This document shows, one piece after another, positions 9,582 to 24,595 of a stretch of 37,171 bases of DNA. Position numbers and translations under genes: made by a program. The notes beneath the pieces were generated by a model that searched no databases, was not told where the DNA came from, and saw nothing but the letters and a program-made list of their open reading frames with translations. The stretch is from positions 1 to 37,171 of the forward strand of contig NZ_JAGPBB010000036.1 in the NCBI RefSeq assembly GCF_018063565.1. Direction: 5' to 3'. This DNA comes from Rhodoferax sp. GTDB taxonomy: Bacteria; Pseudomonadota; Gammaproteobacteria; Burkholderiales; Burkholderiaceae_C. Every line of letters begins with the position of its first letter. The first letter of the stretch is position 1.

Positions 9582-9638
9582 ATGAAATCACTTAAATCCC
9601 TTTTTCTCTTGTCTTTCGCCGCTTTCGGACAAGCCTGA
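9582..9638 (+). CDS. Possible 18-residue leader peptide coupled to the hyfB-like gene
   Basis: An ATG preceded by GTGGAGTCCTC opens an 18-codon frame (MKSLKSLFLLSFAAFGQA) whose stop overlaps the hyfB-like start codon as TGATG. The hyfB-like gene has no clear ribosome site of its own, so translation of this frame could load ribosomes onto it. The peptide resembles a signal-peptide start and may be a remnant of a lost gene rather than a working leader. Existence as a translated unit is unproven. Confidence 0.35.
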   Translation: MKSLKSLFLLSFAAFGQA

Positions 9639-11653
9639 TGCAGCCGCTGGTCTGGGCCGTCTGGCTGCTGTTGGCGGGCGGCGCGCTGTGCCTCTTGCCG
9701 GTGCGTAACCGGCTGCGTGCCAGTTTCGGTCTGTTGTCGCAGGCTGCGGCGACCTTGCTGGTCTGGTCCGCGGTGATTCCGGTGCTGCTGGGCGCACCGG
9801 CGCTGACGCTGGAGATGCCGTGGAGTCACCCGATTGGAGAGATGCATTTCAGACTGGACGCCCTGGGTGCCTTCTTTTTAAGCTGGTCGCTACCCATGAC
9901 GCTGCTCGGCGCGGTGTATGCGGTGGGGTATTTGCGAAAATATTTCGACAGTCCGCGACATGTCGGCGTGCATTTTGGCCTGCTCAACATGATTTCACTG
10001 TCGTTCATCCTGGTCTATACCGGTGAGCACGCGGTGACGTTTTTAATGGGCTGGGAGGTGGCGGCACTGTCCGCCTGGCTGCTGGTGATCTGGGACTACA
10101 GCAACCAGAAAGTTCGCTTTGCCGGCTTCAACTACCTGGTATCGACCCACATCGGGCTGATTTTCTTGGTGGCGGCGTTCATGATTTTGTACACCCAGAC
10201 GCAAAGCTGGTACCTGGACGACTTTGGCGACTGGATGCGCGGGCACCCCGGCACGGTGCGCAACATGGTGTTTTTGCTGCTGCTGACCAGTTTTGGCCTA
10301 AAGTCTGCGTTTTTTCCGTTTCACTCGTGGCTGCCACGCGCACATGCGGCAGCACCGGCCAATGTGAGCGCGCTGATGTCAGGTGTGATCCACAAGGCCG
10401 GGCTGTTTGCGCTGCTGCACTTTTTGCTGATTCAGGGCAAGCCCGATGCTTGGATGGGCTGGCTGCTGCTGGCGTTCTCAGCCACTTCGGCGGTGATTGG
10501 CGGGCTCTACACCGTAGGCCAGCGCGACCTGAAACGGCTGCTGGGTTATTCCAGCACCGAGAACGTCGGCATTGCCGGCATTGGTTTTGGCGTCGGCCTG
10601 TTGGGCCAGGCGTGGGACGTGCCCAGTCTGGTGGCGCTGGGCTATGCTGGGGGCCTGTTGCATGTGCTGAACCACGCGTTCTTTAAATGCCAATTGTTTT
10701 ACGCGGCGGGATGCGTTTATCAGGCCAAGCACGGGGTGGACCTGGAGCGTCTGGGCGGCCTGGCCAAACTGATGCCGCTCACCGCCTTGAGCTTTCTGGT
10801 GGGCGGTGTGGCGATCTCGGCGCTGCCGCCGTTCAACGGCTTTGCCAGCGAGTTCCTGATTTACAGCGGGCTGTTCACGGGCGATGCCTTGAGTGTCTGG
10901 GTCAAGCTGCTGCTGGGCGGCATGGCCACGCTGCTGGCGTTTGTCGGCGCGGTGTCGGCACTGTCGATCACGCGTGCTTATGGCGTGATTTTTATGGGCA
11001 ACTCGCGCGACGACACGCTGCCGCCGGGTGTTGAGCCCAGCGGCTGGATGCTGGCGCCCCTGCTGATTCACACCGCTGGAACGGTGCTGCTGGGGCTGCT
11101 GCCGGTGCTTGGGCTGGCGATGGTGGCGGCACCGACCCGGCTGTTTTTGCAGGCCATGAACCATGCCGATGTGGCTCAGGTGGAAGCGGCCATGGCGAAC
11201 TTGCAAGCGGTGCTACAGCGGGTCGGATTCATCTCGCTGGCGGTGGCGGCGGGCATGGCCTTGCTGTGGTTGGCGCACCGGCTGTGGCAGCGCAATCCAG
11301 CCGCCAGTGGCGCCACCTGGGGCTGCGGGTACACGGCAGGCAGCGCACGGCTGCAATACACAGCCAGCAGTTTTGCCAAAGACTTTGCGCACAACTACGA
11401 CGGCGCGCTGGTGCTGCTCAAACGGCAGAAGGCGCCGATTGGCTATTTTCCTGACGATGCCTATGTGGTCACCCATTGCGTCGATGCCGTGGAGCGCCGG
11501 CTCTATAACGTGATTGGTCAAGGCGACCAGTCGGCGGGGCTGATCTCCCGGTTGATGCATGAAGACGACCCGCGCCTGGGGTTCGCGCTGGGGTTGGCGG
11601 CAGTGGTGGCCATTGCCGCATTGGTGGTGCTGTCGCAAGGGGCGTTGCCATGA
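9638..11653 (+). CDS. hyfB: HyfB-like antiporter-type membrane subunit of Ehr-like complex 1
   Basis: This 671-residue polytopic protein of the NuoL/HyfB/MrpA family should form part of the ion-translocating membrane arm. Key residues of the family are present: the membrane Glu in FLMGWEVAALSAW, Lys in FGLKSAFFPFHSWLPRAH, Lys in SGVIHKAGLF and Lys in NHAFFKCQLF. The C-terminal part (TWGCGYTAGSARLQYTASSF) is typical of HyfB/HycC rather than NuoL. It is the first subunit gene of the plus-strand operon, and its stop overlaps the next start (ATGA). The start at 9638 is shared with the stop of a short upstream frame. Confidence 0.9.
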   Translation: MQPLVWAVWLLLAGGALCLLPVRNRLRASFGLLSQAAATLLVWSAVIPVLLGAPALTLEMPWSHPIGEMHFRLDALGAFFLSWSLPMTLLGAVYAVGYLRKYFDSPRHVGVHFGLLNMISLSFILVYTGEHAVTFLMGWEVAALSAWLLVIWDYSNQKVRFAGFNYLVSTHIGLIFLVAAFMILYTQTQSWYLDDFGDWMRGHPGTVRNMVFLLLLTSFGLKSAFFPFHSWLPRAHAAAPANVSALMSGVIHKAGLFALLHFLLIQGKPDAWMGWLLLAFSATSAVIGGLYTVGQRDLKRLLGYSSTENVGIAGIGFGVGLLGQAWDVPSLVALGYAGGLLHVLNHAFFKCQLFYAAGCVYQAKHGVDLERLGGLAKLMPLTALSFLVGGVAISALPPFNGFASEFLIYSGLFTGDALSVWVKLLLGGMATLLAFVGAVSALSITRAYGVIFMGNSRDDTLPPGVEPSGWMLAPLLIHTAGTVLLGLLPVLGLAMVAAPTRLFLQAMNHADVAQVEAAMANLQAVLQRVGFISLAVAAGMALLWLAHRLWQRNPAASGATWGCGYTAGSARLQYTASSFAKDFAHNYDGALVLLKRQKAPIGYFPDDAYVVTHCVDAVERRLYNVIGQGDQSAGLISRLMHEDDPRLGFALGLAAVVAIAALVVLSQGALP

Positions 11654-12582
11654 GCGCGCCGGTCTGGTTGACGCTGGCACACATCGCCCTGGTGCTGGGG
11701 ATGCCGTTTTTGCTGGTCGGGGTGATCAACCGCACCAAATCCTGGTGGGCGGCGCGCCAGGGGCCAGGGCTGCTGCAATCCTTTCACGACCTGCGCCGCC
11801 TGCTGCGTAAACGGCCGGTGGTCAGCCACACCGCCACGCCACTGTTTCGCGCCAGCGCCTGGGTGGTGCTGGCCTGTAGTCTGCTGGCGATGGGGTTTGC
11901 GCCCCTTTTGGGTCAGTTTGCACCACTATCGTTTGCGCATGACTTTGTCGCCATGGCCTATACGCTTGGGCTGGCGCGCCTGGTGCTGATGCTGGCCGCG
12001 ATGGACGTGGGCAGCCCGTTTGAAGGCATGGGCGCGGCGCGCGAAGCGATGTTTGGCGCGTTTGCCGAACCGGCGCTGTTCTTGCTGCTGGGCACACTCA
12101 GTGCCGCCACCGGTTTGAGCAGTTTTGCCGACCTGCTGGGGCACCTGCACCACACACCGTATTACGCACTGATCGTGCTGCCGCTGACCTTGGCGCTACT
12201 GATCCTGCTGCAAACCGAAGCCGCCCGGGTGCCGGTGGATGACCCGCAGACGCACCTGGAACTGACCATGATTCACGAGGTGATGATCCTCGACCACAGC
12301 GGCCCCGATTTAGCTGCCATGCAATACGCCGCTGGCCTCAAGCTCACGCTGTATGCCGGGCTGATCGCCACCTTGCTCAACCCGTTTGACCCGTTGGTCG
12401 CACCTCTGGCGGCGATTGCCACGTCAATCGGCCTGATGCTGGCCGTGGCCCTGGTGGTGGGTTGTTTCGAGTCGCTGATGGCGCGCTTGCCGCTCAAGTG
12501 GGTGACCGGCTATGTCTGGGTCGCGGGCTGGCTCACTTTGCTGGCCGCGGCCGTGGTGGGCGTGACCGGGGGCGGCTTATGA
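11650..12582 (+). CDS. hyfC: HyfC/NuoH-like membrane subunit of Ehr-like complex 1
   Basis: This 310-residue membrane protein is of the NuoH/HyfC/HycD family, the subunit that anchors the peripheral arm to the membrane arm. Family hallmarks are the cytoplasmic loop VPVDDPQTHLELTMIHE with its run of acidic residues, and the early GPGLLQSFHDLRRLLRK segment. It overlaps both neighbours by four bases (ATGA), which points to tight translational coupling within the operon. Confidence 0.92.
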   Translation: MSAPVWLTLAHIALVLGMPFLLVGVINRTKSWWAARQGPGLLQSFHDLRRLLRKRPVVSHTATPLFRASAWVVLACSLLAMGFAPLLGQFAPLSFAHDFVAMAYTLGLARLVLMLAAMDVGSPFEGMGAAREAMFGAFAEPALFLLLGTLSAATGLSSFADLLGHLHHTPYYALIVLPLTLALLILLQTEAARVPVDDPQTHLELTMIHEVMILDHSGPDLAAMQYAAGLKLTLYAGLIATLLNPFDPLVAPLAAIATSIGLMLAVALVVGCFESLMARLPLKWVTGYVWVAGWLTLLAAAVVGVTGGGL

Positions 12583-13208
12583 ATGTGGCCAACAACCCGA
12601 CGCTGGCGTTGATCGCCTGCCTGCTGGCCACGGTGATTCCGGTGTTTTTTGGCCGACTCGCTCACACGCCGACCTGGCTGAGCCTGCAGGCGCTGGCCTT
12701 GGGCTGGCTGACGCTCAACCAGCACCAGGAACTGGATGTGCATGCGGCAGCGGCCGGGCTGGAGATTTTGCTGATCCGCGCCTGGCTGGTGCCCCACTTG
12801 CTGCGCTGCACCTTAAAAACCACGCCGGCCGCCGAGCTGGAGGTGATGCCTTCAAATTTGTTTGCCTGGGGTGCCGCTGTGGCGCTGATCATTCTGGCGT
12901 TCCAGTTTGGTGACGGAGCACGCGCCGACTTGCGTGCGCTCACGCTGGGCGTGACGGCAGCGACGGTGACGATCGCCTTTTTGGTACTGGCCACCAACCA
13001 CCAGCCCGTGGCGCAACTGGTGGCGCTGCTGTTCATGGAAAACGCGCTGGCGCTGTTTGAATCGCTGATGCCGCAGCCTTGGCCGCTGCCGGTGCACATC
13101 GCTGTCAGCGGGGTGTACGTGGGCACTGTGGCGGTGGGAAGCTGGCTGATCCGGGGACAGCATGTTGCAAGCGATTTGGCCCTGCAGCCCAAGGGAGACG
13201 AGCGATGA
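12579..13208 (+). CDS. hyfE: HyfE/NuoK-like membrane subunit of Ehr-like complex 1
   Basis: This 209-residue membrane protein matches HyfE, whose C-terminal half resembles NuoK. The MEN motif of the family is present (residues 153-155). In the last helix, where the minus-strand paralogue has VEFGIALDVLVG (Glu 180 and Asp 186), this protein reads VHIAVSGVYVG, so the Glu is replaced by His 173 and the Asp is lost. The start at 12579 overlaps the hyfC-like stop (ATGA); a longer in-frame extension would run back into hyfC. The missing acidic residues suggest changed or lost proton conduction through this subunit. Confidence 0.88.
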   Translation: MNVANNPTLALIACLLATVIPVFFGRLAHTPTWLSLQALALGWLTLNQHQELDVHAAAAGLEILLIRAWLVPHLLRCTLKTTPAAELEVMPSNLFAWGAAVALIILAFQFGDGARADLRALTLGVTAATVTIAFLVLATNHQPVAQLVALLFMENALALFESLMPQPWPLPVHIAVSGVYVGTVAVGSWLIRGQHVASDLALQPKGDER

Positions 13209-14638
13209 TAGCTACTACAGTAGAAGCACCCTCGGCTTCTATAGAAGCCGAGGGTGCCGGTACCCGCTGGGTCGCTCCAGCGCTGGTGGGTGCGGCGGCG
13301 CTGATGTGGCTGGCGGCCATCGGGGTGTTTGTTCGCTTCCCCCTGGCTGAGCTGCCGGTCTATTTTGCCAACCGCTACCTGGTTCTCGATGCCACCTCGC
13401 TGCTGTTCATTGTGGTCATCAACACGGTGTTTCTGGGCATTTGTGTGTACCTGTACTCGCGCGAGCGCAACACCCCGGCGCTGATGCAGGACATCCGCTC
13501 GCGCTCTGCGCTGATGCTCTTGATGATGGCGGTGATCAACGTCGGATTGATGGCCAACCATCTGGTGCTGCTGTGGGCGCTGATCGAAATCAGCACGCTG
13601 TGCGCCGCGCCGCTGGTGGCGCGCGGCGAGGTGGCCAACCCGCGTGCGGTAGCGTGGCGCTACATGCTGTATTCCTCAATGTCGCTGGCGATTGCGTTTT
13701 TGGGCTTCATGTGCCTGACGCAATCGGCCAATGTGCGCGGGGTGGATATCAACTTCATGGTCGACCAGTTGGGCGCTTCGCTCACCCACGCGCCCGATGC
13801 CTGGCAGCACCTGGGTTTGTCATTCATGTTGTTTGGCCTGGGTAGCAAGCTCGGGCTGGCACCGCTGTACGGTTGGCTGCCCGAGACCTACGAGGCCGCG
13901 CCCACCACGACCAGCGCCATGCTGTCGTCGATCCAGTTCAATATCAGTATGGTGGCGGTGTTTCGCATCCTGCAAATTTTTCACGGGCTGCAGGCCAACT
14001 TTATCTCGCAGGAACTGCTGGTGATGGGCTATCTGTCGCTGGTGGTGGCCGCCGTGCAGATCATGGCCAGCAGCAACTACAAGCGGCTGATTGCCTATGC
14101 CTGCGTCAGCTCGTCGGGCGTGATTGCGCTGGGTTTGTCAGTTGGCAAGGCGGCGGCTTACGGCGTGGTGCTGTACATCGTCAGCAACGCGTTTGTCAAA
14201 ACCCTGCTGTTCCTGACTGCTGGACGGATGCGCTCGGTGTACGGTACACACGAGGTCGGCCCCTTGAGTGGCGTGATTCGCACGCTGCCGCTGGCCGGGC
14301 TGCTGTTCACGCTGGGGATTTTTGCGCTGTTGGGGTTTCCGCCGTTTGCCAGCTTTTTGGCCGAGATGCTGATCCTCTCAGGCATCGTGCAAGCCGGCAA
14401 TTTGATGGCGTTCACGCTGATGTGTGTGATGCTGACGGTGATTTTTGTCGCCACCGGGCGCACCGTGTTCCCGATGCTGTGGGGCCAACCCAAGGTACAG
14501 GTCACCGCGCCACCCCAGTCGTGGTTCACGCTGCTGCCCAAGCTGGGGTTTGTGGCGGTGCTGGTGATGCTGGGCACCTACACGCCCGATGTGTTCACCG
14601 ACCTGCTGCGCGCCGTGGCGGTGTCGATTGGGGGTTGA
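13205..14638 (+). CDS. hyfF: HyfF-like antiporter-type membrane subunit of Ehr-like complex 1
   Basis: This 477-residue protein of the NuoN/NuoM/HyfF family is the second antiporter-like subunit of the complex. It keeps the family Glu in WALIEISTLCAAPLV, Lys in GSKLGLAPLYGWLPETYEAAP and Lys in SNAFVKTLLF. The start ATG overlaps the hyfE-like stop (ATGA). The first 20 codons are peculiar: codons 8-18 lie on a perfect 32-base palindrome, giving an N-terminus (VEAPSASIEAEGAG) with no counterpart in the minus-strand paralogue. The next gene starts one base after its stop. Confidence 0.9.
   Translation: MIATTVEAPSASIEAEGAGTRWVAPALVGAAALMWLAAIGVFVRFPLAELPVYFANRYLVLDATSLLFIVVINTVFLGICVYLYSRERNTPALMQDIRSRSALMLLMMAVINVGLMANHLVLLWALIEISTLCAAPLVARGEVANPRAVAWRYMLYSSMSLAIAFLGFMCLTQSANVRGVDINFMVDQLGASLTHAPDAWQHLGLSFMLFGLGSKLGLAPLYGWLPETYEAAPTTTSAMLSSIQFNISMVAVFRILQIFHGLQANFISQELLVMGYLSLVVAAVQIMASSNYKRLIAYACVSSSGVIALGLSVGKAAAYGVVLYIVSNAFVKTLLFLTAGRMRSVYGTHEVGPLSGVIRTLPLAGLLFTLGIFALLGFPPFASFLAEMLILSGIVQAGNLMAFTLMCVMLTVIFVATGRTVFPMLWGQPKVQVTAPPQSWFTLLPKLGFVAVLVMLGTYTPDVFTDLLRAVAVSIGG
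13226..13257 (+). repeat. Perfect 32-base palindrome inside the start of hyfF-like gene
   Basis: The two 16-base arms (GCACCCTCGGCTTCTA and its exact reverse complement) meet with no spacer. In RNA this would form a strong hairpin about 20 bases after the hyfF-like start codon; in DNA it could be a cruciform or a binding site. The arms are read in frame. Confidence 0.95.
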
Positions 14639-14639
14639 C

Positions 14640-16235
14640 ATGACGCACCACACCACCGCCACGCCTCTGCAGCCATGGCTGCAACGCGATTTGATGGTCC
14701 TCGATTTACTGCCAATAGAAGAGCTGGTAGCGCAGGCAAGAAAAGGGCTCGAGGCCAATTTTCATCTTATTTCATGGTTTGGCCGCAGCGCGCGTGCCGA
14801 TGAGCCGGCGGGGGTGTTTGTCACGGCGGTGTTGTTAGCACCGGGTGAGCCGCTGCGCGTGTTGCGCGGCCATGCGGCACCCGCTGCACACTACCCCAGC
14901 CTGACACCGGATTTTCCCGCCGCGCAGATTTACGAGCGCGAGCTGTGGGAGCAAACCGGCCTGTTGCCCGATGGCCACCCCTGGCTGAAACCGGTGCGGT
15001 TTGAAGGGGCGCGCCAGCAGCAGATGGCTGACTACCCGTTTTTCAAGGTGCGCGGAGCCGAGGTGCACGAGGTGGGTGTCGGCCCGATCCACGCCGGGGT
15101 GATCGAGCCAGGCCACTTTCGCTTCATGTGCCATGGCGAACAGGTGCACCATCTTGAAATTCAATTGGGTTACCAGCATCGCGGTGTCGAGGCACTGCTA
15201 CTGCGCAAGACGCCGCAGCGCCTGATGCCGCTGGTGGAATCCATCGTTGGCGACTCAGCGGTGGCCTACGCCTGCGCTTTCGCCAGTGCGCTGGAATCTA
15301 TGGCAAATCGGCCTGTAGCGCTCGCTACGCTTGCGTCACGCGCTATTGGTTTAGAGATGGAGCGGCTCGCCATCCACCTCGCCACCCTGAATGGCCTGGC
15401 GACCGACATCGCCTATTTGCAGCCCGCTGCCACCTATGGACGGCTGCGCACCGCCATCATCAACGCCAGTCAGCGCGTCAGTGGCAACCGATTTGGCCGC
15501 GGCTGGATTCGCGCAGGCAGCGCCAAACCCGTCGGTGATGCCCTGCGGCAAGACCTGCTGACCACGCTGCGTGCCTTTCTGCCGCATTTTCAGCAAGCCA
15601 ACGCGCTGCTGCGCACCAGTCGCACGGCACAGGCGCGTTTTCAGGGGGTGGGGGTGGTCAGCACACAAGCCGCACGCGACATCGGGTTGAACGGTGTGGT
15701 GGCGCGCGCCAGTGGCGTGGCGCTGGACCTGCGCCACGCCTTGCCCGGTGCTTTTTACGCCCAGTACCCGACCCAGCCGCTGGCGCACACCAGCGGTGAC
15801 TGCTGGGCGCGCACGCTGCAGCGCATGAATGAGGCGGAAATCAGCGCGCAGTGGCTGATCGACCGGCTGTCCGACATCTCACTGGATTTGACCCAGACAC
15901 CCGACCCGCACGCAGCGAAGTCCTTCGCGCCCAACAGCCAGGGCGCCCAAAGCGGCTCGCCTGGAGCAAGCCATGCCCCAGTGCCCGATGCGTCCCACCA
16001 CCCCTGGGCGCTGCAACCCAACGCACTGTGCGTGTCGCTGGTCGAAGGCGTGCGCGGCCCAGTGATGCTGGCCCTTGAATCCGACGCGGCGGGCCAGCTG
16101 ATTCACGCCAAGGTGCAAGACCCGTCGCTGGCCAACTGGTTTGGCCTGGCGTGGGCGCTGCGCAATCAGGCGATTTCAGACTTTCCCATCTGCAACAAGA
16201 GTTTCGATTTGTCTTACTGCGGCAACGATTTGTAG
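14640..16235 (+). CDS. hyfG: HyfG-like (NuoCD-type) large subunit of Ehr-like complex 1, without NiFe ligands
   Basis: This 531-residue protein has a NuoC-like N-terminal domain (about 1-125, ending ERELWEQTGLLPDGHPWLKP) and a NuoD/hydrogenase large-subunit domain from about 140 (GPIHAGVIEPGHFRF). In NiFe enzymes an RxCGIC pair and a C-terminal DPCxxC pair bind the metal centre. Here the first site reads VESIVGDSAVAYA (199-211) and the C-terminus ends NKSFDLSYCGNDL, so neither pair exists and there is no tail for a maturation protease. A Ser/Pro/His-rich insert lies at about 425-460. Two repeat copies are read in frame (residues 25-44 and 221-237). It is not a hydrogenase by sequence; the quinone-site-like cavity could still act with the NuoB-like subunit. 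Confidence 0.9.
   Translation: MTHHTTATPLQPWLQRDLMVLDLLPIEELVAQARKGLEANFHLISWFGRSARADEPAGVFVTAVLLAPGEPLRVLRGHAAPAAHYPSLTPDFPAAQIYERELWEQTGLLPDGHPWLKPVRFEGARQQQMADYPFFKVRGAEVHEVGVGPIHAGVIEPGHFRFMCHGEQVHHLEIQLGYQHRGVEALLLRKTPQRLMPLVESIVGDSAVAYACAFASALESMANRPVALATLASRAIGLEMERLAIHLATLNGLATDIAYLQPAATYGRLRTAIINASQRVSGNRFGRGWIRAGSAKPVGDALRQDLLTTLRAFLPHFQQANALLRTSRTAQARFQGVGVVSTQAARDIGLNGVVARASGVALDLRHALPGAFYAQYPTQPLAHTSGDCWARTLQRMNEAEISAQWLIDRLSDISLDLTQTPDPHAAKSFAPNSQGAQSGSPGASHAPVPDASHHPWALQPNALCVSLVEGVRGPVMLALESDAAGQLIHAKVQDPSLANWFGLAWALRNQAISDFPICNKSFDLSYCGNDL
14713..14771 (+). repeat. Dispersed repeat copy in hyfG-like gene 1, NuoC-like domain
   Basis: The stretch contains AGCTGGTAGCGCAGGCAAG followed by AAGGGCTCGAGGCCAATTTT, matching the family layout ATAGCTGCT-GCGC...GGGCTAGAGGCC-ATTTT found between other genes of this window. 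It is translated in frame as about residues 25-44 of the large subunit. Confidence 0.75.
15301..15350 (-). repeat. Dispersed repeat copy in hyfG-like gene 1, catalytic domain
   Basis: On the minus strand it reads CCAATAGCGCGTGACGCAAG then CGAGCGCTACAGGCCGATTT, close to the family core. It encodes about residues 221-237 and keeps the same length as the aligned region of the minus-strand paralogue, so the host protein was not lengthened. Confidence 0.7.
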
Positions 16236-16242
16236 GCCACCC

Positions 16243-17007
16243 ATGTTCAAAAGCATCGCCGTTCGTAAGTCCCAGGGCACACAGTACATCCCTGACCTGT
16301 ACGCCGCGCAACCTGGCGGCTTTCGCGGCAAACCGCAAATTGTCGATGTGCCTTGCGCGAGCGGCTGCATGGCCTGTGCCGAAGTGTGCCCGAATCAGGC
16401 GGTGATGCTCAGCCCGATGGACCGCGATCCGGTGGTGTTTGACCTGGGCCGCTGCGTGCTGTGCGGCGACTGCGCAACGGTGTGCCCGTCGGGCAAAATC
16501 AGCTTTACGAACGATGTGAAAATCTGCGCCACCCGCCGCGAGGCGCTCACCGTCAGCGCGATGCACCCCAACATCGAACCCCTGAAGGTCAGCGCCGAGC
16601 TGAAAAAGCGCTTTGGCCGCTCGCTCAAACTGCGTTCGGTGTCGGCCGGCGGCTGCAATGGCTGCGAGATGGAAATCAACGCCTGGGGTAACGTGAACTT
16701 TGACATTGGCCGCTACGGCATCGACATCGTCGCCAGCCCGCGCCATGCCGACGGCCTGGTGCTGTCCGGCCCGATCAGCCGCAACATGATGGACGCCCTG
16801 CAGATCTGCTGGGACGCGATGCCCGAGCCCAAGCTGGTAATTGCCGTGGGGGCATGCGCCATTTCGGGTGGTGTATTTGCCCAAAGCGAGGCTTTGGGAC
16901 GCGAGTTTCTCGACAAGTATCCACCCAGCCTATACGTGCCCGGTTGCCCGGCGCACCCGCTGACCTTTATCAGCGGCATCATGGATTTGCTGGGCATCGC
17001 GAGGTAG
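16243..17007 (+). CDS. Ferredoxin/NuoB-like fused subunit of Ehr-like complex 1
   Basis: This 254-residue protein joins HyfH- and HyfI-type functions. An N-terminal two-cluster ferredoxin domain has Cys 38, 42, 45 and 49 (first spacing three residues instead of the usual two) and Cys 71, 74, 77 and 81 (canonical CxxCxxCxxxCP). A NuoB-like domain from about 125 carries Cys 138 and 141 (GGCNGCEMEI), 205 (VGACAISGG) and 235 (VPGCPAHP), the ligands expected for an N2-type cluster. It would pass electrons from a soluble donor to the large subunit. It starts seven bases after the large-subunit stop and ends the plus-strand operon. The minus-strand paralogue lacks the ferredoxin part. The ATG at 16243 is chosen because upstream codons overlap the large subunit. 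Confidence 0.9.
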   Translation: MFKSIAVRKSQGTQYIPDLYAAQPGGFRGKPQIVDVPCASGCMACAEVCPNQAVMLSPMDRDPVVFDLGRCVLCGDCATVCPSGKISFTNDVKICATRREALTVSAMHPNIEPLKVSAELKKRFGRSLKLRSVSAGGCNGCEMEINAWGNVNFDIGRYGIDIVASPRHADGLVLSGPISRNMMDALQICWDAMPEPKLVIAVGACAISGGVFAQSEALGREFLDKYPPSLYVPGCPAHPLTFISGIMDLLGIAR

Positions 17008-17080
17008 GCGTTGCAATGGGCCGCGTATGGCGCGCATTTGGCCCGCGTCACGGGTTGACGTGGTTGCCACGGGCATCCGA

Positions 17081-17245: not shown

Positions 17246-17344
17246 GTTGCCAGCAACTTCTGTGCTCGCTGCCGCATTTCAAGATGATGGGCTACTTTTT
17301 CCTTGCTGCTTCTGCCCCAGCTGTACGATGGTCCGGCACAAGGC

Positions 17345-17878
17345 TCAAAGCCTCGGGCGACTGCTAACCTGTCGGCGCACCGCCAGCAGGATTCCGCGCA
17401 AAATTTCCACTGGCTCGGGTGGACAGCCAGGTACGGTCACATCCACCGGGATGACATTGGCCACGCGCCCGCAGGTGGCGTAGGTCTCGCCAAACACGCC
17501 GCCATCGCAGGCGCAGTCGCCCACAGCCACCACCAGCTTGGGCTCGGGGGTGGCCTCATAGGTACGCTTCAAGGCCATTTCCATGTTGCGCGACGCTGGC
17601 CCGGTCACCAGCAGCAGATCGGCATGGCGTGGACTGGCGACAAACTTGATGCCCAGCCCTTCGATGTTGTAGTAGGGGTTGCCCAGCGCGTGGATTTCCA
17701 GCTCGCAGCCGTTGCAGGAACCTGCATCGACTTGGCGGATGGTCAGCGATTGCCCTAAAATTTGTAGCAGTTCACGATGGATGCGTGAGGGCTCAAGGGC
17801 AGAAACGTCCCCGATATCGGGGGCAGGTTCGGTCGGGATACCCGCTTTGCCGATTTGCCAGGCCAGTTTCCAGATCAT
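17345..17878 (-). CDS. hyfI: NuoB/HyfI-like iron-sulfur subunit of Ehr-like complex 2
   Basis: This 177-residue subunit has Cys 55 and 58 (GSCNGCELEI), 122 (VGDCACDGG) and 152 (VPGCPPEP), the four N2-type ligands of the NuoB/HyfI family. Unlike the plus-strand paralogue it has no ferredoxin domain; residues 1-45 are a short linker region. No separate HyfH/HyfA-type ferredoxin gene lies in this operon, so its direct electron donor is unclear. It begins ten bases after the large-subunit gene. Confidence 0.92.
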   Translation of the reverse strand: MIWKLAWQIGKAGIPTEPAPDIGDVSALEPSRIHRELLQILGQSLTIRQVDAGSCNGCELEIHALGNPYYNIEGLGIKFVASPRHADLLLVTGPASRNMEMALKRTYEATPEPKLVVAVGDCACDGGVFGETYATCGRVANVIPVDVTVPGCPPEPVEILRGILLAVRRQVSSRPRL

Positions 17879-17888
17879 GTTGGCATCC

Positions 17889-19481
17889 TCACAGGTCCTG
17901 GCCCGAATAGCTCAGGTTGAACGACTTGTTGATCAAGGGAAAGTCAGCCACGATGTCGTTCATGATGGAATGCTCCAGCACCGGCCAGTTTTGCCACGAC
18001 GGGTCGTGCAGGTGGCAGCGCCGGATGCAGTTCCCTTGCTCGGCACCGGCCAGCTCCAGCGCGACAAATATCTCACCGCGCCAGCCTTCCACCCAACCAG
18101 CACCCTGGCTTGGCTGCTGCGGCAGGGCCACCTCGCTCTGCAGTGCACCCACCGGCAGTTCGCGCAAGATGCCGTGAATCAGTCGCAAGCTTTCCAGCAG
18201 CTCGTCAAAACGCACCGCCACGCGGGCCGCCACATCGCCGCTGCGGTGGCTGGCACGATTGACCTGCAGTTCGGCGTAGGGCGCGAACGGGTGGTCGCAG
18301 CGCACATCCTGGCGCTGGCCGCTGGCCCGCCCCGCCAGCCCGGTGAGACCCAGTTGCCCGGCCAGCGCGGGGGTGATGCGCCCGGTGATGATGAAGCGGT
18401 CTTGCAGGCCGGCGTGCGCTTCAAAAATGTCAAACAGGCCCTTTACCTCGGCTTCGATCACATCACACTGGGAGCGCATCTGGTCGCGCTGCGTCTGGTC
18501 AATGTCGTGCAGCACGCCACCGGGCACGATGCAGTCCATCATGAAACGGTGGCCAAAGACCGCTTTCGACAGGCGCTGCCAGTCTTCGCGCAGCCGTGAA
18601 AACTGCGCCAGCGCAAAGGCAAATGCCACGTCATTGGCAATGGCACCCAGGTCACCGAGGTGGTTGGCAACGCGCTCGCGTTCCAGCAGCAGCGCGCGCA
18701 GCCAGGCGGCCCGCGGTGAAATGCTGCACTGGCAGGCGGATTCGAGCGCCATGCAATAAGCCCAGGCGTAGGCCACGGTGCTGTCACCCGATACCCGCCC
18801 GGCCAATCGAAACGCCTGCAGCGCGGGCAGCTGCGTCATGCGTTGCTCCACACCTTTGTGGGTGTAGCCCAAGCGCTCTTCCAGCCGCAGGATATGTTCC
18901 CCAACCACCGAGAACCTGAAGTGCCCCGGCTCGATGATGCCCGCGTGCACCGGGCCTACCGCAATTTCATGCGCACCATCGCCGCCGACCGAAACAAATG
19001 GGTAATCCGTCAGTTGCCCTGGTGCCGGGGGTGGCAGTGCCAGCGGGTCTTGCAACAGCGGGTAATGGTCAGCCGCCCAGGCACCGTGGTTGAACCAGGG
19101 TCGGGTGTCTGGCGCACCGTCAGCATGCACGTTCGACAAATCAGCGGCGGTTCGCTGCATCCGGTTGGCGCAGGGGAACACAACTGACAAATCCGGGTAA
19201 ATGGCGCGGCCTTCAGTGACTTGCAATGGCAGAGCCAGCCAGAACGCACCATCTGCCGTGACATAGGAGCAAAATATGGCCTTAGCGCTTGCCGGACTTG
19301 CGCCGCCAGCTACAGGTGTAATAGCTCCTGAAGCCCACAATGCCAGCAGCCTGCCGCCAGACTCACGCACTGCGCGGGCAGCAACTTGCCATTGCGCAGC
19401 CGTAACCTGAGCAAAGCCGATCGGTACCGGTGCACTTAGGCGGGTAAATTCAACTTCAAGACCGGCGATCTTCATGGTCAT
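17889..19481 (-). CDS. hyfG: HyfG-like (NuoCD-type) large subunit of Ehr-like complex 2, without NiFe ligands
   Basis: This 530-residue protein starts at the ATG at 19481 behind GGGAGG, eight bases after the hyfF-like stop; an in-frame extension into hyfF is rejected. The N-terminal part is NuoC-like and the large-subunit domain begins near 170 (GPVHAGIIEPGHFRF, 177-191). The first metal-ligand site reads GRVSGDSTVAYAW (228-240) and the C-terminus is NKSFNLSYSGQDL, so all four NiFe-binding cysteines are absent. Between the domains lies an Asp/Pro-rich linker (about 115-155). Residues 53-72 are encoded by a copy of the dispersed repeat. Its closest relative in the window is the plus-strand large subunit. 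Confidence 0.9.
   Translation of the reverse strand: MTMKIAGLEVEFTRLSAPVPIGFAQVTAAQWQVAARAVRESGGRLLALWASGAITPVAGGASPASAKAIFCSYVTADGAFWLALPLQVTEGRAIYPDLSVVFPCANRMQRTAADLSNVHADGAPDTRPWFNHGAWAADHYPLLQDPLALPPPAPGQLTDYPFVSVGGDGAHEIAVGPVHAGIIEPGHFRFSVVGEHILRLEERLGYTHKGVEQRMTQLPALQAFRLAGRVSGDSTVAYAWAYCMALESACQCSISPRAAWLRALLLERERVANHLGDLGAIANDVAFAFALAQFSRLREDWQRLSKAVFGHRFMMDCIVPGGVLHDIDQTQRDQMRSQCDVIEAEVKGLFDIFEAHAGLQDRFIITGRITPALAGQLGLTGLAGRASGQRQDVRCDHPFAPYAELQVNRASHRSGDVAARVAVRFDELLESLRLIHGILRELPVGALQSEVALPQQPSQGAGWVEGWRGEIFVALELAGAEQGNCIRRCHLHDPSWQNWPVLEHSIMNDIVADFPLINKSFNLSYSGQDL
19269..19325 (-). repeat. Dispersed repeat copy in hyfG-like gene 2, NuoC-like domain
   Basis: On the minus strand it reads GGAGCTATTACACCTGTAGC, TGGCGGCGCAAGTCCGGC and AAGCGCTAAGGCCATATTTT, one of the best matches to the family. 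It is translated in frame as about residues 53-72. Its place in the NuoC-like N-terminal domain is comparable to the first copy in the plus-strand large subunit, but orientation and reading frame differ. Confidence 0.75.
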
Positions 19482-19488
19482 GCTCGCT

Positions 19489-20943
19489 TCAACCTCCCAG
19501 CATGGCGGCGGCCTGCAGATACCAGCCGTTGAGATAAGGCGGGATGTACAAGCCCAGCACCAGTGCCAGCAGCAAATGGGCAAACACCGGAAGCAGCGCC
19601 GGCGGGTGCGCCAGCGGTTTGAGTGTGGAGTCGCCAAACACCATCGGCAACACCCGCACCAGCATCGAGGCAAACGCCACGCCCAAAGCCAGAAACAGGA
19701 AGGGGGTGGCCCACGGCTGCTCGCGCATGGCGGTGGTCAAAATCAAAAATTCGCTGGCAAACACACCAAACGGCGGCATGCCCAAAATCGCCATCACGCC
19801 CAGCATCAGGCCCCAACCCACCGTCGGGTTGACCTTGATCAGGCCGCGAATCTCGCTCATCTGCTGTGTGCCGGCCTTTTGCGTGGCGTGCCCCACGGTG
19901 TAAAAAATGGCCGATTTGACCAGCGAATGCACCGTCATGTGCAGCAAACCGGCAAAGTTGGCCAAGGGCGAGGCCATGCCAAAGGCAAAAGTGATCAACC
20001 CCATGTGCTCGATGCTGGAGTAGGCAAACATACGCTTGACATCCTTCTGGCGTGAGATGAAGAACGCCGCTACCACCACCGACAGCAGGCCAAAACCCAT
20101 CATCAGCTCACCGGCCATGGCGTTGCCTAAAGCGCCATCGGTCAGCACCTTGACGCGCAGCACGGCGTACATCGCTACATTCAGCAGCAAACCTGACAAC
20201 ACCGCCGACACCGGCGTCGGACCTTCGGCATGGGCGTCGGGCAGCCAGCTGTGCAGGGGAACCAGGCCTATTTTGGTGCCATAACCCACCAGCAAAAACA
20301 CGAATGCCAGCGTGATGATGGTGGGGTCAAGCTGATTCTTGATGGCGGCCAGATCGGTCCACAGCAGCGTGGCACCGTGTTCACCCAGAAGTTTGTCGGC
20401 TGCCATGTAGAGCAGCACCGTGCCAAACAGCGCCAGCGCAATGCCGACGCCACACAAAATGAAGTATTTCCAGGCGGCTTCCAGGCTGGCCGCAGTGCGA
20501 TAGACGCTGACCAGCAGCACGGTGGTCAGCGTGGCGGCTTCCATCGCTACCCAGATGATGCCCAGATTGTTGGTGGTCAGCCCCAGCAGCATGGTGAAGC
20601 TGAACAACTGGTACATGCTGTGGTACAGCCGCATGCGTGGCGGCGTCATCTTGCCGTGGTCTTGCTCCACGCGCATGTAGGGGCGTGAAAAGATGGCCGT
20701 GGTCAGGCCGACAAAGGCGGTGAGCGTGACCAGAAATACGTTGAGCGGGTCGATGTAAAACAGCTTGTCCCAGACAAACTCCGGGCCCTCGTTGATGACC
20801 TGCGCGGTCATGAAACAGGCCGCGACAAACGTGCCCAGACTAAAGGCCACGTTGACATCACGCGCCCAAGCGCGATGCCCGGTGAGTGCCAGCGCCAGGC
20901 CACCGAGCAGTGGAATGCCCAAAACCAGAAAAAGTGCGTTCAT
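19489..20943 (-). CDS. hyfF: HyfF-like antiporter-type membrane subunit of Ehr-like complex 2
   Basis: This 484-residue protein is of the NuoN/NuoM/HyfF family. It keeps the membrane Glu in VAMEAATLTTVLLV, Lys in GYGTKIGLVPLHSWLPDAH and Lys in HSLVKSAIFY. The ATG at 20943 is preferred because AAGGA lies nine bases upstream; a TTG at 20949 is possible. It follows the hyfE-like gene by two bases. With the HyfB-like subunit it provides two antiporter-type ion channels for this complex. Confidence 0.92.
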   Translation of the reverse strand: MNALFLVLGIPLLGGLALALTGHRAWARDVNVAFSLGTFVAACFMTAQVINEGPEFVWDKLFYIDPLNVFLVTLTAFVGLTTAIFSRPYMRVEQDHGKMTPPRMRLYHSMYQLFSFTMLLGLTTNNLGIIWVAMEAATLTTVLLVSVYRTAASLEAAWKYFILCGVGIALALFGTVLLYMAADKLLGEHGATLLWTDLAAIKNQLDPTIITLAFVFLLVGYGTKIGLVPLHSWLPDAHAEGPTPVSAVLSGLLLNVAMYAVLRVKVLTDGALGNAMAGELMMGFGLLSVVVAAFFISRQKDVKRMFAYSSIEHMGLITFAFGMASPLANFAGLLHMTVHSLVKSAIFYTVGHATQKAGTQQMSEIRGLIKVNPTVGWGLMLGVMAILGMPPFGVFASEFLILTTAMREQPWATPFLFLALGVAFASMLVRVLPMVFGDSTLKPLAHPPALLPVFAHLLLALVLGLYIPPYLNGWYLQAAAMLGG

Positions 20944-20945
20944 GC

Positions 20946-21605
20946 TCAATCGTCCTTGAGCACTTCAAGGTGGTGGATGTCCAGACTGTCAAACTTCTCG
21001 CGGATCTGGAACATGAACACGCCCAGAATCAGCACGCCCACCAGCACATCGAGCGCAATGCCAAATTCCACGATCATCGGCATGCCGTTGGTCACGGTGG
21101 TGGCGGCAAAGATCAGGCCGTTTTCCATCGACAGAAAGCCGATCACCTGCGGCACCGCTTTGCTGCGGGTGATCATCATCATGAACGACAGCAGCACACA
21201 CGCCAGCGCAATGCCCAGCGAACCGCCGGCCAGCGAGTCTGACAGGCGCGACACCGGCAGCGCCAGACTGAAGGCAAAAATCACCAGCGCAATGCCGACC
21301 AGCATGGTGGTGGGAATGTTCAGCAGCGTCTCGACATCCCAGCGCACATTGAGTTTGTGCAGCATGCGGTGCAGCATCCACGGGATAAAGATCACCTTGA
21401 GCACCAGTGTCAGCGCCCCCGACACGTACAGGTCAGGTTGCTGTGTCGCATAGCCCAGCAAAAACGAGGCCGCCACCAGCGCCGCCCCTTGTAGCATGAA
21501 CAGGTTGATCAGCGACACAATGCGCCGTTGCGAGATCATGGCAAACGCCAGCAACAGGATCAGCGTGGCAAACAGGTTGATGAGTTGCGGCACAAACTTG
21601 ACCAT
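20946..21605 (-). CDS. hyfE: HyfE/NuoK-like membrane subunit of Ehr-like complex 2
   Basis: This 219-residue protein has the full HyfE layout: a MEN motif (160-162) followed by a last helix VEFGIALDVLVG containing Glu 180 and Asp 186, the acidic residues expected of the NuoK-like part. The ATG at 21605 is chosen; a TTG at 21611 would add two residues. It lies six bases after the hyfC-like stop. Its acidic pair is absent from the plus-strand paralogue. Confidence 0.92.
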   Translation of the reverse strand: MVKFVPQLINLFATLILLLAFAMISQRRIVSLINLFMLQGAALVAASFLLGYATQQPDLYVSGALTLVLKVIFIPWMLHRMLHKLNVRWDVETLLNIPTTMLVGIALVIFAFSLALPVSRLSDSLAGGSLGIALACVLLSFMMMITRSKAVPQVIGFLSMENGLIFAATTVTNGMPMIVEFGIALDVLVGVLILGVFMFQIREKFDSLDIHHLEVLKDD

Positions 21606-21611
21606 GGCCAA

Positions 21612-22574
21612 TTACCCCGCACCCAGCAACACATTGACCAGCAGCCCGATCACCGCCAGCAAGAAGGCGGTGCCCAGAAACTCCGGCACGCGAAAAATGC
21701 GCATCTTGGCGCTGGCGGTCTCGACCAGCGCCAACAGCATGCCACCAATGGCCAGTTTGAAAAGTAGCACCGGCAGCGCCAGCAGCAGTGCCAGCGGTGC
21801 CTGGGCTTCGGCGATGCCCCACGGGAAAAACAGCGCCAGGCCAATGCACGAGTAGGCAAACAGCTTCAGACTGGCGGCCCACTCCAGCAGCGCCAGATGC
21901 CGGGCCGAATACTCCAGAATCATCGCCTCGTGGATCATGGTGAGTTCCAGGTGCGTGTCGGGGTTGTCCACTGGCACGCGGGCGTTCTCAGCCAGCGACA
22001 CCATGGTGAACGCCACCCCGGCCAGCAGCAAGCTGGGGTAAATCATCAGCTCGCGGTGCGCCAGCGTTTCGACAATGGCGGTGAGTGACGTGGAGCGGGT
22101 GATCATGGAGGCGCAAAACAGCACCATCAGTAAAGCCGGCTCGGCCAAAAAACCCACCAGCATTTCGCGCCGCGCGCCCAGCGTGCCAAACGCCGTGCCG
22201 ATATCCATCGCGGCCAGCGAGATAAACACCCGCGCCAGTGCAAACAGCCCCACCAGCGCAATGGCGTCCGCAGCCGGTGACAGCGGCAGGTCGGTCGACA
22301 GGGTGGGGATGATGGCGCAGGCCAGCAACATGCAGCCAAAGATCAGGTACGGTGCCACCCGGTACAGGCTGGAGGCGTGCTCGGCCATCAGCGACTCTTT
22401 GTGAAACAGTTTGTGCAGCATGCGGTAGGGCTGTAGCACACCGGGAGCCGACTTGTTTTGCATCCAATGCCGACATTGGTTCACCCAGCCCGACAGCAGC
22501 GGTGCGAGCAGCAGCGCGGTCAGCAGCGCCGCCAGTTGCGAAAAAACGCCCAGGACGGTGATGCTTTCGCTCAT
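21612..22574 (-). CDS. hyfC: HyfC/NuoH-like membrane subunit of Ehr-like complex 2
   Basis: This 320-residue NuoH-family subunit carries the hallmark loop VPVDNPDTHLELTMIHEAM and the early GVLQPYRMLHKLFHKE segment. It anchors the NuoB/NuoCD-like peripheral part to the membrane arm. The start overlaps the hyfB-like stop (ATGA). It is ten residues longer than the plus-strand paralogue, mostly at the N-terminus. Confidence 0.94.
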   Translation of the reverse strand: MSESITVLGVFSQLAALLTALLLAPLLSGWVNQCRHWMQNKSAPGVLQPYRMLHKLFHKESLMAEHASSLYRVAPYLIFGCMLLACAIIPTLSTDLPLSPAADAIALVGLFALARVFISLAAMDIGTAFGTLGARREMLVGFLAEPALLMVLFCASMITRSTSLTAIVETLAHRELMIYPSLLLAGVAFTMVSLAENARVPVDNPDTHLELTMIHEAMILEYSARHLALLEWAASLKLFAYSCIGLALFFPWGIAEAQAPLALLLALPVLLFKLAIGGMLLALVETASAKMRIFRVPEFLGTAFLLAVIGLLVNVLLGAG

Positions 22575-24595
22575 CGCTTCACCACCAGCAGCACGACGAT
22601 CAGCGTCGCAAAGCTGTACATCAGATAGACCGCAATGCGGCCCTGCTGCAACAAGCCGACCAGCTTCGAGATGCGTTCAACCCCCCGCGCCAGCGGCAGA
22701 TACAGCGCGTGCCACAGCGGGTCTTCTACTGTGACGCGGTAGGTGGGCTTGGCGTCAAAGGCGCTGGGCAGGTGCTTGGTCATGCGAAAGAACGGCGAGA
22801 AAATACGCCGGATCGGGTGACCAAAACCTTCCGCCGTGTCCTGCATGCGCGCGTTCTGCCAGGGGTGACCGCAGTCCCACGGCGGCACCCGGCGCAAGCG
22901 GCCGTGGTAGAGCCAGCGCACCAGCCAGAACGACAGGCCGTAAGTCAGCACAATGCCCAAAAAGAAAATGACCGGCGCATAACTGGCGCGCTCTGCGTTC
23001 ACCGGCACCAGCAGCCAGCCGCTGTCGGCCACGGTATGCGCCAGCCCGCCATGCACCAGCATGCGTGTCACCGGGTCGATCAGCGCGATCGTGTGGTTGG
23101 GAAACAGGCCCAGCAACACGCACCCTGCCACCAGCCACAGCATGCCCAGGCGCTCCCAGTGACCCGCGTCATGCGCCTGCGATAGCTTTTCTTCACGCGG
23201 CTGCCCCAGAAAGATCACGCCAAAATACTTCACCATGGTGAAACCCGACAGCGCTGCAATCAGCGCAATCAACGCCGCCATCACCGGCACCAGCATGTCC
23301 AGTGAAGTATTGGGCAGCCCGGTGGTGAATAAAAAGCTTTGCAACAGCAGCCATTCGGCCACAAAACCGCCAAACGGCGGCAGCCCGGCGCAAGCCAGCG
23401 CGCCCACCAGCGTCGGCCAGGCCACCCACGGCATATAGCGGATCAAACCGCCAAGCTTGCCCAGACTGCGCTCGCCCGTGGCGTGCAACACCGCGCCGGT
23501 GCTGCAAAACAGCAGGCTTTTGAAAAACGCGTGGCTGATCATGTGGTACAGCGCGGCGGTGAGCGCCAGCGCCGCAAAGGCGTGCATGGCGTAGCTGGAA
23601 AACAGCAGCGACAAGCCAATACCGGCGCACATCAGCCCAATGTTTTCAATGGAGGAATACGCCAGCAAGCGCTTCATCTCGACCTGCACGGTGGAAAACA
23701 CCACGCCAAACAGCGCCGTGGCCAGCCCCAGCCCCATCAGCAGCACCCCCCACCACCAGAGGCGGGTTTGCAGCAGGTCAAACGACACCCGCAAGATGCC
23801 GTACAGCGCAATTTTGAGCATCACCCCACTCATCAGCGCCGAAAAGGGCGAGGGCGCTGCCGGGTGCGCCTCAGGCAGCCAGGCGTGCAGCGGCAGCAGC
23901 CCGGCCTTGGCACCAAAGCCAAATACGGCCAGCACAAACGCCACTGAGCCCCAGAACGGTGTCAGGTTCTGCTGGCGCATATTGGCAAAGGTGTAGTCAC
24001 CCGTGCCCGCCTGCAGCAGGCCAAAGCACAACAAAATACCCAACGCACCCACATGCGCCACCAGCAGATACAAGTAACCCGCCTGGCGGATCGCCGCGTG
24101 GCGGTGATTGGCCAGCACCAGAAAGAAGGAAGACAGCGCCATGGTTTCCCACATCACCATGAACATGTAGGCATCATCAGCCAGCACCAGCAGCGCAATG
24201 CTGGCCAGAAAAACGTGGTACTCCAGACAGATCAGCCCCGGCGGCGTGCCTTCGCCCTTGCGAAAGTAACCGGCTGCAAATGCCGAAACACCCGCCGAGA
24301 CGCCGCCGATCAGCAGCAGGAAAAAGCTCGAAAGACTGTCCAGCCGCAGGTGAAATGGCAGTTGCGGCAGTCCCAGTGGCAATACGGCGGTTTGCACGCT
24401 GGCAAACATGGCGTTCAGTGCCACCGCCATCAGCAGCAGCGAAAGCAGGGCGCCGGCTGGAAACAATACGATGGCGACCAAGCGCAAGCGCCGCAACGCG
24501 ACCACCCCCGCAGCGCTGATCAGCAACCAGCCAAACACTACCAGCAGCACCCAGTCCAAGTGGACCCACGTAGCGGGACTGGTGAAACTGTTCAT
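22571..24595 (-). CDS. hyfB: HyfB-like antiporter-type membrane subunit of Ehr-like complex 2
   Basis: This 674-residue HyfB/HycC-family protein heads the minus-strand operon. The start is taken at the ATG at 24595 (MNSFTSPATWVHLDW); codons further upstream give a basic, low-complexity stretch unlike the family. Conserved features are VMWETMALSSFFLVLANHR, GFGAKAGLLPLHAWLPEAH, SGVMLKIALYGILR and SHAFFKSLLF, plus the C-terminal PPWDCGHPWQNARMQDTAEG region typical of HyfB. No strong ribosome site precedes the start. The gene diverges from the DUF3460 gene across a 155-base gap. Confidence 0.92.
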   Translation of the reverse strand: MNSFTSPATWVHLDWVLLVVFGWLLISAAGVVALRRLRLVAIVLFPAGALLSLLLMAVALNAMFASVQTAVLPLGLPQLPFHLRLDSLSSFFLLLIGGVSAGVSAFAAGYFRKGEGTPPGLICLEYHVFLASIALLVLADDAYMFMVMWETMALSSFFLVLANHRHAAIRQAGYLYLLVAHVGALGILLCFGLLQAGTGDYTFANMRQQNLTPFWGSVAFVLAVFGFGAKAGLLPLHAWLPEAHPAAPSPFSALMSGVMLKIALYGILRVSFDLLQTRLWWWGVLLMGLGLATALFGVVFSTVQVEMKRLLAYSSIENIGLMCAGIGLSLLFSSYAMHAFAALALTAALYHMISHAFFKSLLFCSTGAVLHATGERSLGKLGGLIRYMPWVAWPTLVGALACAGLPPFGGFVAEWLLLQSFLFTTGLPNTSLDMLVPVMAALIALIAALSGFTMVKYFGVIFLGQPREEKLSQAHDAGHWERLGMLWLVAGCVLLGLFPNHTIALIDPVTRMLVHGGLAHTVADSGWLLVPVNAERASYAPVIFFLGIVLTYGLSFWLVRWLYHGRLRRVPPWDCGHPWQNARMQDTAEGFGHPIRRIFSPFFRMTKHLPSAFDAKPTYRVTVEDPLWHALYLPLARGVERISKLVGLLQQGRIAVYLMYSFATLIVVLLVVKR

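Follow-up and report, generated by a model that had tools for sequence, protein, structure and literature searches.

A contig of 37,171 nucleotides from a Rhodoferax draft genome (NZ_JAGPBB010000036.1; the whole stretch is termed the window, and the draft is 4.1 Mb and 92.8% complete) carries two operons for Ehr complexes that converge on one another. Ehr complexes are relatives of the group 4 [NiFe] hydrogenases that lack the NiFe site. Excerpts of three accounts describe their function as unknown and their role as an open question, with a coupling of redox chemistry to charge movement suspected (PMC6349859, PMC10284858, PMC10432482). The plus-strand operon, termed p, occupies positions 9638-17007(+), and the minus-strand operon, termed m, occupies positions 24595-17345(-); each consists of six intact genes in the order B-C-E-F-G-I. 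These operons probably encode two separate, complete Ehr complexes that have different input modules and do not form one machine. On the best reading of the evidence, p and m have been inherited together, and have sometimes moved together, as separate ion pumps.

A sequence-only reading of the window had described two complete convergent Ehr-like operons, and this was borne out: all 12 open reading frames (ORFs) are intact, lie where they were placed and have exactly the lengths given. In p, the B gene (9638-11653) encodes a HyfB/NuoL-like, antiporter-like membrane subunit of 671 residues and overlaps the next ORF by four nucleotides. It is followed by C (11650-12582), a NuoH/HyfC-like membrane anchor of 310 residues (Pfam NADHdh, E 6.8e-24); E (12579-13208), a HyfE-like small membrane subunit of 209 residues, recognized by its position and by 26% identity to the E subunit of m over 107 residues; and F (13205-14638), a HyfF/NuoM-like second antiporter-like subunit of 477 residues (Proton_antipo_M, E 5.5e-35). 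The soluble arm consists of G (14640-16235), a NuoC/D-HyfG-like large subunit of 531 residues that lacks NiFe ligands and ends in NKSFDLSYCGNDL, and I (16243-17007), a protein of 254 residues in which a two-[4Fe-4S] ferredoxin domain is fused to a NuoB/HyfI-like small subunit, with 8 + 4 ligand cysteines. The m operon, on the minus strand, encodes the corresponding antiporter-like B (22571-24595; 674 residues), NuoH/HyfC-like anchor C (21612-22574; 320 residues; NADHdh, E 2.7e-34), small membrane subunit E (20946-21605; 219 residues) and antiporter-like F (19489-20943; 484 residues), a NuoC/D-HyfG-like G without NiFe ligands (17889-19481; 530 residues; C-terminus NKSFNLSYSGQDL), and a NuoB/HyfI-like I without a ferredoxin domain (17345-17878; 177 residues).

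The assignments agree between the two operons. In both, Pfam identifies B and F as Proton_antipo_M, C as NADHdh, G as Complex1_30kDa plus Complex1_49kDa and I as Oxidored_q6, and both thus have homologs of the large and small subunits of group 4 [NiFe] hydrogenases and complex I. The p I subunit additionally matches a dicluster 4Fe-4S domain, which accounts for its greater length. Neither E subunit has a Pfam match, and p E is also without an NCBIfam match. In comparisons with NCBIfam profiles, m B and m F score above the cut-offs for hydrogenase 4 subunits B and F, m E reaches 83.8 bits against the hydrogenase 4 membrane subunit (under the cut-off of 136), and p B reaches 433 bits, below the hydrogenase-4 B cut-off of 667. 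Four neighboring gene pairs overlap by 4 bases and the remaining pairs lie 1 to 10 bases apart; therefore, each six-gene set reads as one operon. With only these six genes, neither operon includes the NADH module NuoE/F/G. An assembly artefact of the draft was ruled out, as the same convergent pair is found in other genomes, in one of them (G1160) in two contigs.

Neither large subunit retains a [NiFe] site, as the sequence-only reading had also noted. In the window, p G and m G lack both CxxC pairs, and with them the motifs RxCGxC and DPCxSC that E. coli HyfG/HycE have. All four NiFe cysteines are replaced, the motifs giving way to GDS (GD(S/T)) and to (D/N)LSY(C/S)GxDL, the latter three residues from the end; the two window proteins have GPxHAxxIEPGHFRF, GD(S/T) and NKSF(D/N)LSYxGxDL in common. 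Among 35 p and 51 m rows of the G alignment, a full CxxC occurs in none (the first N-terminal cysteine is found in five p rows and one m row, and the second in one m row), and the C-terminal NiFe cysteine pair is missing from every filled row. A different cysteine, located between the two lost C-terminal NiFe positions, is invariant in p G (35/35 p and 5/5 Bacteroidales rows), and m and the hydrogenases mostly have serine there. Only 3 residues follow the C-terminal motif in p and m, versus 35 in E. coli HycE and HyfG, so the extension that a maturation protease removes from hydrogenases is absent from p G and m G, and no maturation-protease-like ORF was seen within either operon. A structure model of p G is of moderate quality (mean pLDDT, the predicted local distance difference test, 69.8; residues 116-180, 422-454 and the C-terminus below 50), and its active-site geometry supports no claim.

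The soluble arms also depart from complex I. The column of the quinone tyrosine (Tyr87 of Nqo4, numbering of PMC7684303) is glycine in 35/35 p rows and 50/51 m rows. The histidine of GPxH (His38 of Nqo4 in the same numbering) and the glutamate of EPGHFRF are kept in all 86 G rows. In the small subunits, all eight ferredoxin-type and all four proximal cysteines of p I are present in 35/35 rows. The m I rows have no ferredoxin domain; each proximal cysteine is present in 50 to 52 of the 52 rows, and only a fragment and a divergent row deviate. In the window, m I keeps all four. Both types have the CxxC spacing of hydrogenases around the four proximal cysteines. By these counts, therefore, the ligands present would suffice for three [4Fe-4S] clusters in p and one in m. 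The p I subunit of the closest relative (L010:3682-4506) has a 21-residue insert between the first two cysteines of the ferredoxin motif.

The residues expected of an ion-moving membrane arm are retained. In B and F, every p and m row with a filled column keeps the matches to NuoM E144, K234 and E407 (numbering verified against the E. coli sequences), and p C keeps E157, D213 and E220. The position of NuoH E218 is histidine in the C subunit of p (31/31), m (48/48) and the readable Bacteroidales sequences, and glutamate in E. coli HyfC, HycD and NuoH.

The two operons are clearly diverged, with identities between p and m of 31.5% for B, 38% for C, 26% for E (over 107 residues only), 28% for F, 32% for G and 49% for I. 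Five FastTree phylogenies were built, one each for B, C, F, G and I, with 92 to 103 rows and an E. coli Hyf or Hyc protein as the root. All five group the p rows in a clade (support 0.89 to 1.0) and do the same for p together with the Bacteroidales rows (0.97 to 1.0). An identity cut-off defined the m set, which forms a clade in the B, C, F and G trees (in G with a support of only 0.52); in the I tree, two further rows fall inside it. Divergent types from four genomes (G049, G1078, G1126 and G937) were not counted as m, except that G049, G1078 and G1126 enter the m set of the I tree by the cut-off; the fragment G1168_L101_1382 was not used. Because the clades are consistent across subunits, each operon has evolved as a block. 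Judged from these phylogenies, p and m are two ancient, separate lineages, and the 26-49% identity together with the separate clades in five subunit trees rules out a recent tandem duplication, in agreement with the sequence-only reading.

Inheritance of p and m is largely vertical, with a weak extra tie between them. Across 24 genomes (276 pairs; G000, without an rpoB match, and G905, with a short rpoB piece, were left out), distances correlate at 0.54 between p and m, 0.59 between p and rpoB and 0.69 between m and rpoB. Given rpoB, the partial correlation of p and m distances is 0.23, a value matched in 1 of 2000 permutations. In the subunit trees, proposed earlier as a check on a joint system, the two operons belong to separate lineages, and both follow the rpoB tree in good part.

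Searches of genome samples indicate that m is common and p is rare. At 1e-20, 109/399 genomes of the order sample have a G-type match to p G, mostly at 33-39% identity. Four of these matches, fetched at 36-39%, are m operons (L044-L047), and two at 31-32% (L095, L096) are of the NiFe type; m is therefore common, but the 109 are not all m. The p operon was found in 13/399 genomes of the family sample, in 21/89 of the genus and in 2 further genomes of the order sample (G455, G413); in the phylum sample (398 genomes), it occurs only in the genome of the window itself. This gives 35 Burkholderiales p operons in total (G905 included), all of which were fetched and examined, and the nearest named relatives of p are from Rhodoferax metagenome-assembled genomes.

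The two operons co-occur more often than expected in the family and are nonetheless separable. The family sample has m, defined as a row of at least 50% identity, in 10/13 genomes with p versus 39/386 without p (P = 7e-8) or, counted by genus, in 5/7 versus 14/134 (P = 5e-4); these tests ignore relatedness. Overall, m is present in 26/35 Burkholderiales p genomes and the pair is convergent in 12. The tie thus survives the check on recurrence that had been suggested from the sequence, by which clusters that almost never occur together would have spoken against it. Conversely, p is without m in 9/35 genomes (7 of them at least 90% complete), m is without p in 39/49 m-bearing genomes of the family sample, and five Bacteroidales genomes searched with m G hold a relative of p and no m. 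A single genus includes genomes with p only, m only, both or neither.

Physical linkage is frequent where both operons are present. In the 26 genomes with p and m, the arrangement is convergent in 12, tandem in 3 and apart in 7, and was not scored in 4 with contigs that end near an operon (G1174, G1177, G934 and G1010). Both operons lie on one contig in 15/26, within 10 kb in 13 and at about 18-20 kb in G1205 and G1076. Ten convergent pairs are close, with 21 to 7343 bases from p to m. In G1076 the distance is about 18 kb; in G1205, an operon of a third type, m2, lies 1.5 kb from p, and m is about 20 kb away. At the other extreme, p and m are 1.9 Mb apart in G121, which is a single contig. Five genomes (G1169, G1217, G1214, G061 and G905) were scored as apart because their contigs continue for 8 kb or more beyond p and still further beyond m, or up to the end of the m contig. 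G1229 was scored as apart because it has the same glycogen genes behind p as G1214, its contigs by themselves excluding only gaps of less than about 5.6 kb.

Neighboring genes outline the history of the locus. Upstream of p, 13 genomes have a metG-type ORF, separated from p by an RHH gene in two of them. On the outer side of m, a DUF3460 gene, plus scpA where the contig reaches it, is found in 17 loci including the window, and metG also lies near m in loci with m only (L043, L046, L087 and L088). Pfam confirmed one metG member and the DUF3460 and ScpA genes of the window. The simplest history would be an ancestral locus metG - p> <m - DUF3460 - scpA that was later broken in some lines. A second form exists. 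In three genomes of the family (G143, G1147 and G1089), p and m stand in tandem, separated by a spermidine-synthase-like gene and an RHH gene, and plasmid 3 of Variovorax sp. PBL-E5 (NZ_LR594673.1) reads RHH gene - p - small genes - spermidine synthase - m, its proteins having 53-81% identity to the p and m proteins of the window. The pair therefore exists in two arrangements and on a plasmid.

A third Ehr type gathers at the same place. The G subunit of m2 is 42-47% identical to m G, and six such sequences form one clade in a tree that carries a warning of long outgroup branches. The m2 operon adjoins m or p in G1205, G1088, G1168, G1184 and G1204, and panB in G1171; its presence beside m or p marks the locus as a gathering place for Ehr operons. 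Loci with m2 are L056, L057, L085, L101-L104 and L106, and G1205 holds p, m2 and an m truncated by the contig end on one 34-kb contig. A further divergent Ehr-like type in G1078 and G937 (L093, L094) has the G motifs SGCAAF and ASFGLSVAESDR and S, L, D, C as proximal ligands.

More distant relatives of p have altered electron-transfer ligands. I subunits were collected from five Bacteroidales loci (L012-L016) and from nine further genomes (L162-L170) among 247 Bacteroidia searched, in which the match of G1420 was unreadable. All 14 have D, D and N in place of three proximal ligands and either C or N at the fourth position; they also retain only four of the eight ferredoxin cysteines, which could bind one cluster. 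A plasmid of the deinococcotal Allomeiothermus silvanus encodes an I subunit (L173:10314-11186) in which all four proximal cysteines are lost and the four cysteines of one ferredoxin-type cluster are kept.

These observations suggest how the two complexes might work. Each membrane arm, made of the antiporter-like B and F, the NuoH-like C and the small E, would move H+ or Na+, driven by a soluble arm of G and I that has neither a [NiFe] site nor the quinone tyrosine. In p, a soluble carrier would feed low-potential electrons into the two [4Fe-4S] clusters fused to I; the fused domain suggests reduced ferredoxin as the most likely donor. The electrons would then pass to the proximal [4Fe-4S] cluster and on to an acceptor located in the cavity that lies between I, G and C, and the energy released would drive B and F. 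The m complex would be the same engine with the proximal cluster only; a different partner must therefore dock directly on that cluster. As for their proximity, p and m would adjoin because p fills the interval between metG and m in an old locus, and only some of its descendants would have retained this link. Co-occurrence and linkage suggest cooperation between the two, which are probably separate machines at work in a common physiological setting.

Several results weigh against this reading. Within the genus, co-occurrence is not significant (17/21 versus 41/68, P = 0.12), where the 41 are genomes with any second-type match, not all of them fetched, some of which may hold m2 only. The link was lost or never present in 7/22 resolved genomes, and the linked state is unclustered on the p tree, its 12 convergent rows requiring 10 changes compared with a shuffled mean of 10.3. 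Convergence may go back to a single old event and have persisted by inertia. In the window, neither operon has a recognizable donor or acceptor gene beside it. Marker families were sought in 56/89 genus genomes: every one of the 21 that have p, plus 35 that lack it, most of the latter with a completeness of 93% or more. RnfC passes its cut-off in 7/21 p genomes and in 9/35 of the others, a nonsignificant difference that gives no link, and a PFOR-type family, which passes its cut-off in 53/56, does not discriminate; a ferredoxin source was thus rejected as a marker for p. Finally, the Bacteroidota sisters of p lack the proximal ligands, so a simple wire through the proximal cluster is not the mechanism of the whole family. 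In the same 56 genomes, HypD is found in 20/21 with p versus 22/35 without (P = 0.009; one of three families tried). Both operons occur without a HypD match in G1206 (98% complete), and p therefore seems independent of NiFe maturation.

That p and m are two halves of one larger machine, or of an obligate supercomplex, had been offered as one possibility for the window. Their adjacency there and elsewhere, with a convergent or tandem order in 15/22 resolved genomes that have both, is what such a machine would predict. However, each operon has the full B, C, E, F, G and I set, each also occurs alone (m in 39/49 family genomes; p in 9/35 Burkholderiales and the five Bacteroidales genomes), and in G121 the two are separated by most of 2 Mb. 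One joint machine or obligate supercomplex is thus very unlikely, and p and m are likely to be independent Ehr complexes that form an associated pair. The association might also be devoid of function, p having landed once beside m in a shared locus, so that the neighborhood is a legacy and the co-occurrence reflects relatedness. This is a real possibility, although not the one we favor. It fits the metG gene before p and the DUF3460 gene outside m, the presence of metG near m even without p, the tracking of rpoB by both sets of distances and the nonsignificant test within the genus. It does not readily explain the tandem arrangement with its spermidine-synthase-like gene in three genomes and on a plasmid, the p-m correlation that persists after rpoB is taken into account, or the clustering of m2 with p or m.

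The remaining explanations concern what the complexes do. Altered I subunits in 14/14 Bacteroidota and on the deinococcotal plasmid, which lack three or four proximal cysteines and keep those of one ferredoxin-type cluster, would suit an Ehr complex that is not driven by electrons, in which the soluble arm senses or regulates and B and F form an ion antiporter. This reading is unlikely: all 12 cysteines are kept in p of the window and its 34 Burkholderiales kin, as are the four proximal cysteines in m of the window and nearly all m rows, which argues for selection on electron transfer there. It is very unlikely that one or both complexes are sulfane-sulfur (polysulfide) reductases resembling the MBS of Pyrococcus, which uses the proximal cluster itself. 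According to excerpts of the published work, MBS is likewise missing two of the four NiFe cysteines as well as the quinone residues, in line with the loss of the NiFe ligands and quinone tyrosine from p and m. Yet, in those excerpts, MBS works through a proximal cluster with three cysteines and a shortened cysteine motif, whereas p and m keep four cysteines and CxxC spacing, and the GPxH histidine and the glutamate aligned with MbhL E21, both kept in p and m, are absent from MBS. A bolder proposal, which we regard as unlikely but worth stating, is that p and m form a functional pair: two pumps free of NiFe and of the quinone tyrosine, a ferredoxin-wired p and a minimally wired m, would act on one shared substrate, one forwards and one backwards, and together spend an ion gradient to trade electrons from one carrier pool to another, as a genetic module mobile on plasmids. 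If this proposal were true, the kin in Bacteroidota and Deinococcota would show that energy coupling by Ehr complexes needs no electron transfer through a NuoB-type cluster.

A host with two anciently separate Ehr types that differ mainly in the electron-entry module offers a controlled comparison of input and engine, and the relatives without proximal-cluster ligands are a natural test of the need for that cluster. The occurrence of the p-m pair in several relatives provides a handle on the function of Ehr machines. What was noted in the window is right and more general than could have been known from one sequence.

The gap between the converging operons (17008-17344) is 337 bases long; a terminator scan found no terminator-like site in it, and a 54-codon ORF in the gap was not seen next to m I elsewhere among the scanned loci. 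The idea of a seventh subunit encoded after m I was rejected, because by eye the ORFs lying within 260 bp of that gene have no protein in common across the loci scanned. Shared cargo in the gap was rejected as well. Ten proteins were scanned, eight from gaps of six genomes (one of them between p and m2) and two from the tandem arrangement; the matches are mutually unrelated (CheB/CheR, B12/MerR, AMP-binding, MCP and HerA-like), three have no match, and the pairing is not explained by them. Two loci have a YhcG/DUF1016-type nuclease gene inside the p operon between E and F (L052:2778-3827 and L058:4029-4948, in the latter as two ORFs). Outside m in the window lie the recurrent DUF3460 gene (24751-24960, plus strand; Pfam and synteny), scpA (25029-25877; Pfam ScpA) and a gene at 25892-27490 that we take to be nadB. 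An ABC importer (ATPase, two-domain permease and solute-binding protein) is encoded directly upstream of p at positions 6054-9411, the place that metG takes in other genomes.

Comparison with known systems separates the two halves of the pair. The m operon comprises the same six genes as hyfBCEFGI of Cupriavidus metallidurans CH34 (Rmet_4666-4671) and its counterpart in H16, with identities to the CH34 proteins of 68% for B, 77% for C, 70% for E, 78% for F, 58% for G and 74% for I. The p operon is of another lineage, with 28-45% identity to the CH34 proteins, no match for E and the ferredoxin-I fusion. Excerpts of PMC2864759 describe the C. metallidurans genes as an incomplete hyf operon unlikely to serve lithotrophy and do not mention a paired p. 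The pair had been put forward as a candidate for an undescribed system; for m this does not hold, since that half is already known. Neither a p-m pair nor a ferredoxin-fused Ehr I subunit was found in a search of open-licence papers (the excerpt of PMC5178258 does not mention Ehr). The view that known Hyf/Hyc operons are single, NiFe-bearing and equipped with accessory genes needs correction. As far as excerpts of the sources go, hyfBCEFGI of At. ferrooxidans is classed as a non-hydrogenase (PMC7735108), that of Nitrospira was interpreted as a putative group 4 hydrogenase (PMC5596200), and Acidithiobacillus caldus has two hyf clusters in one species. The A. caldus clusters resemble the window in number; unlike p and m, they are not adjacent, one belonging to the core genome and the other to the flexible genome, on a genomic island. 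The Ehr complexes of comammox Nitrospira, ammonia-oxidizing archaea and Margulisbacteria are, in excerpts of their descriptions, also NiFe-less group 4 relatives, with antiporter-like subunits named in one text; unlike the window, these accounts describe neither a convergent or tandem pair nor a ferredoxin-I fusion. MBS of Pyrococcus furiosus, per the excerpts consulted above, is similar in being a group 4 relative that lost the NiFe site and kept the ion-moving arm, and differs in its proximal cluster. The E. coli Hyf and Hyc systems (hydrogenase-4 and formate hydrogenlyase) have NiFe cysteines that are absent from p and m, and hyf has A, D, H, J and R in addition. With respect to complex I (NDH-1), p and m have neither the NADH module nor the quinone residue Tyr87, and they keep His38.

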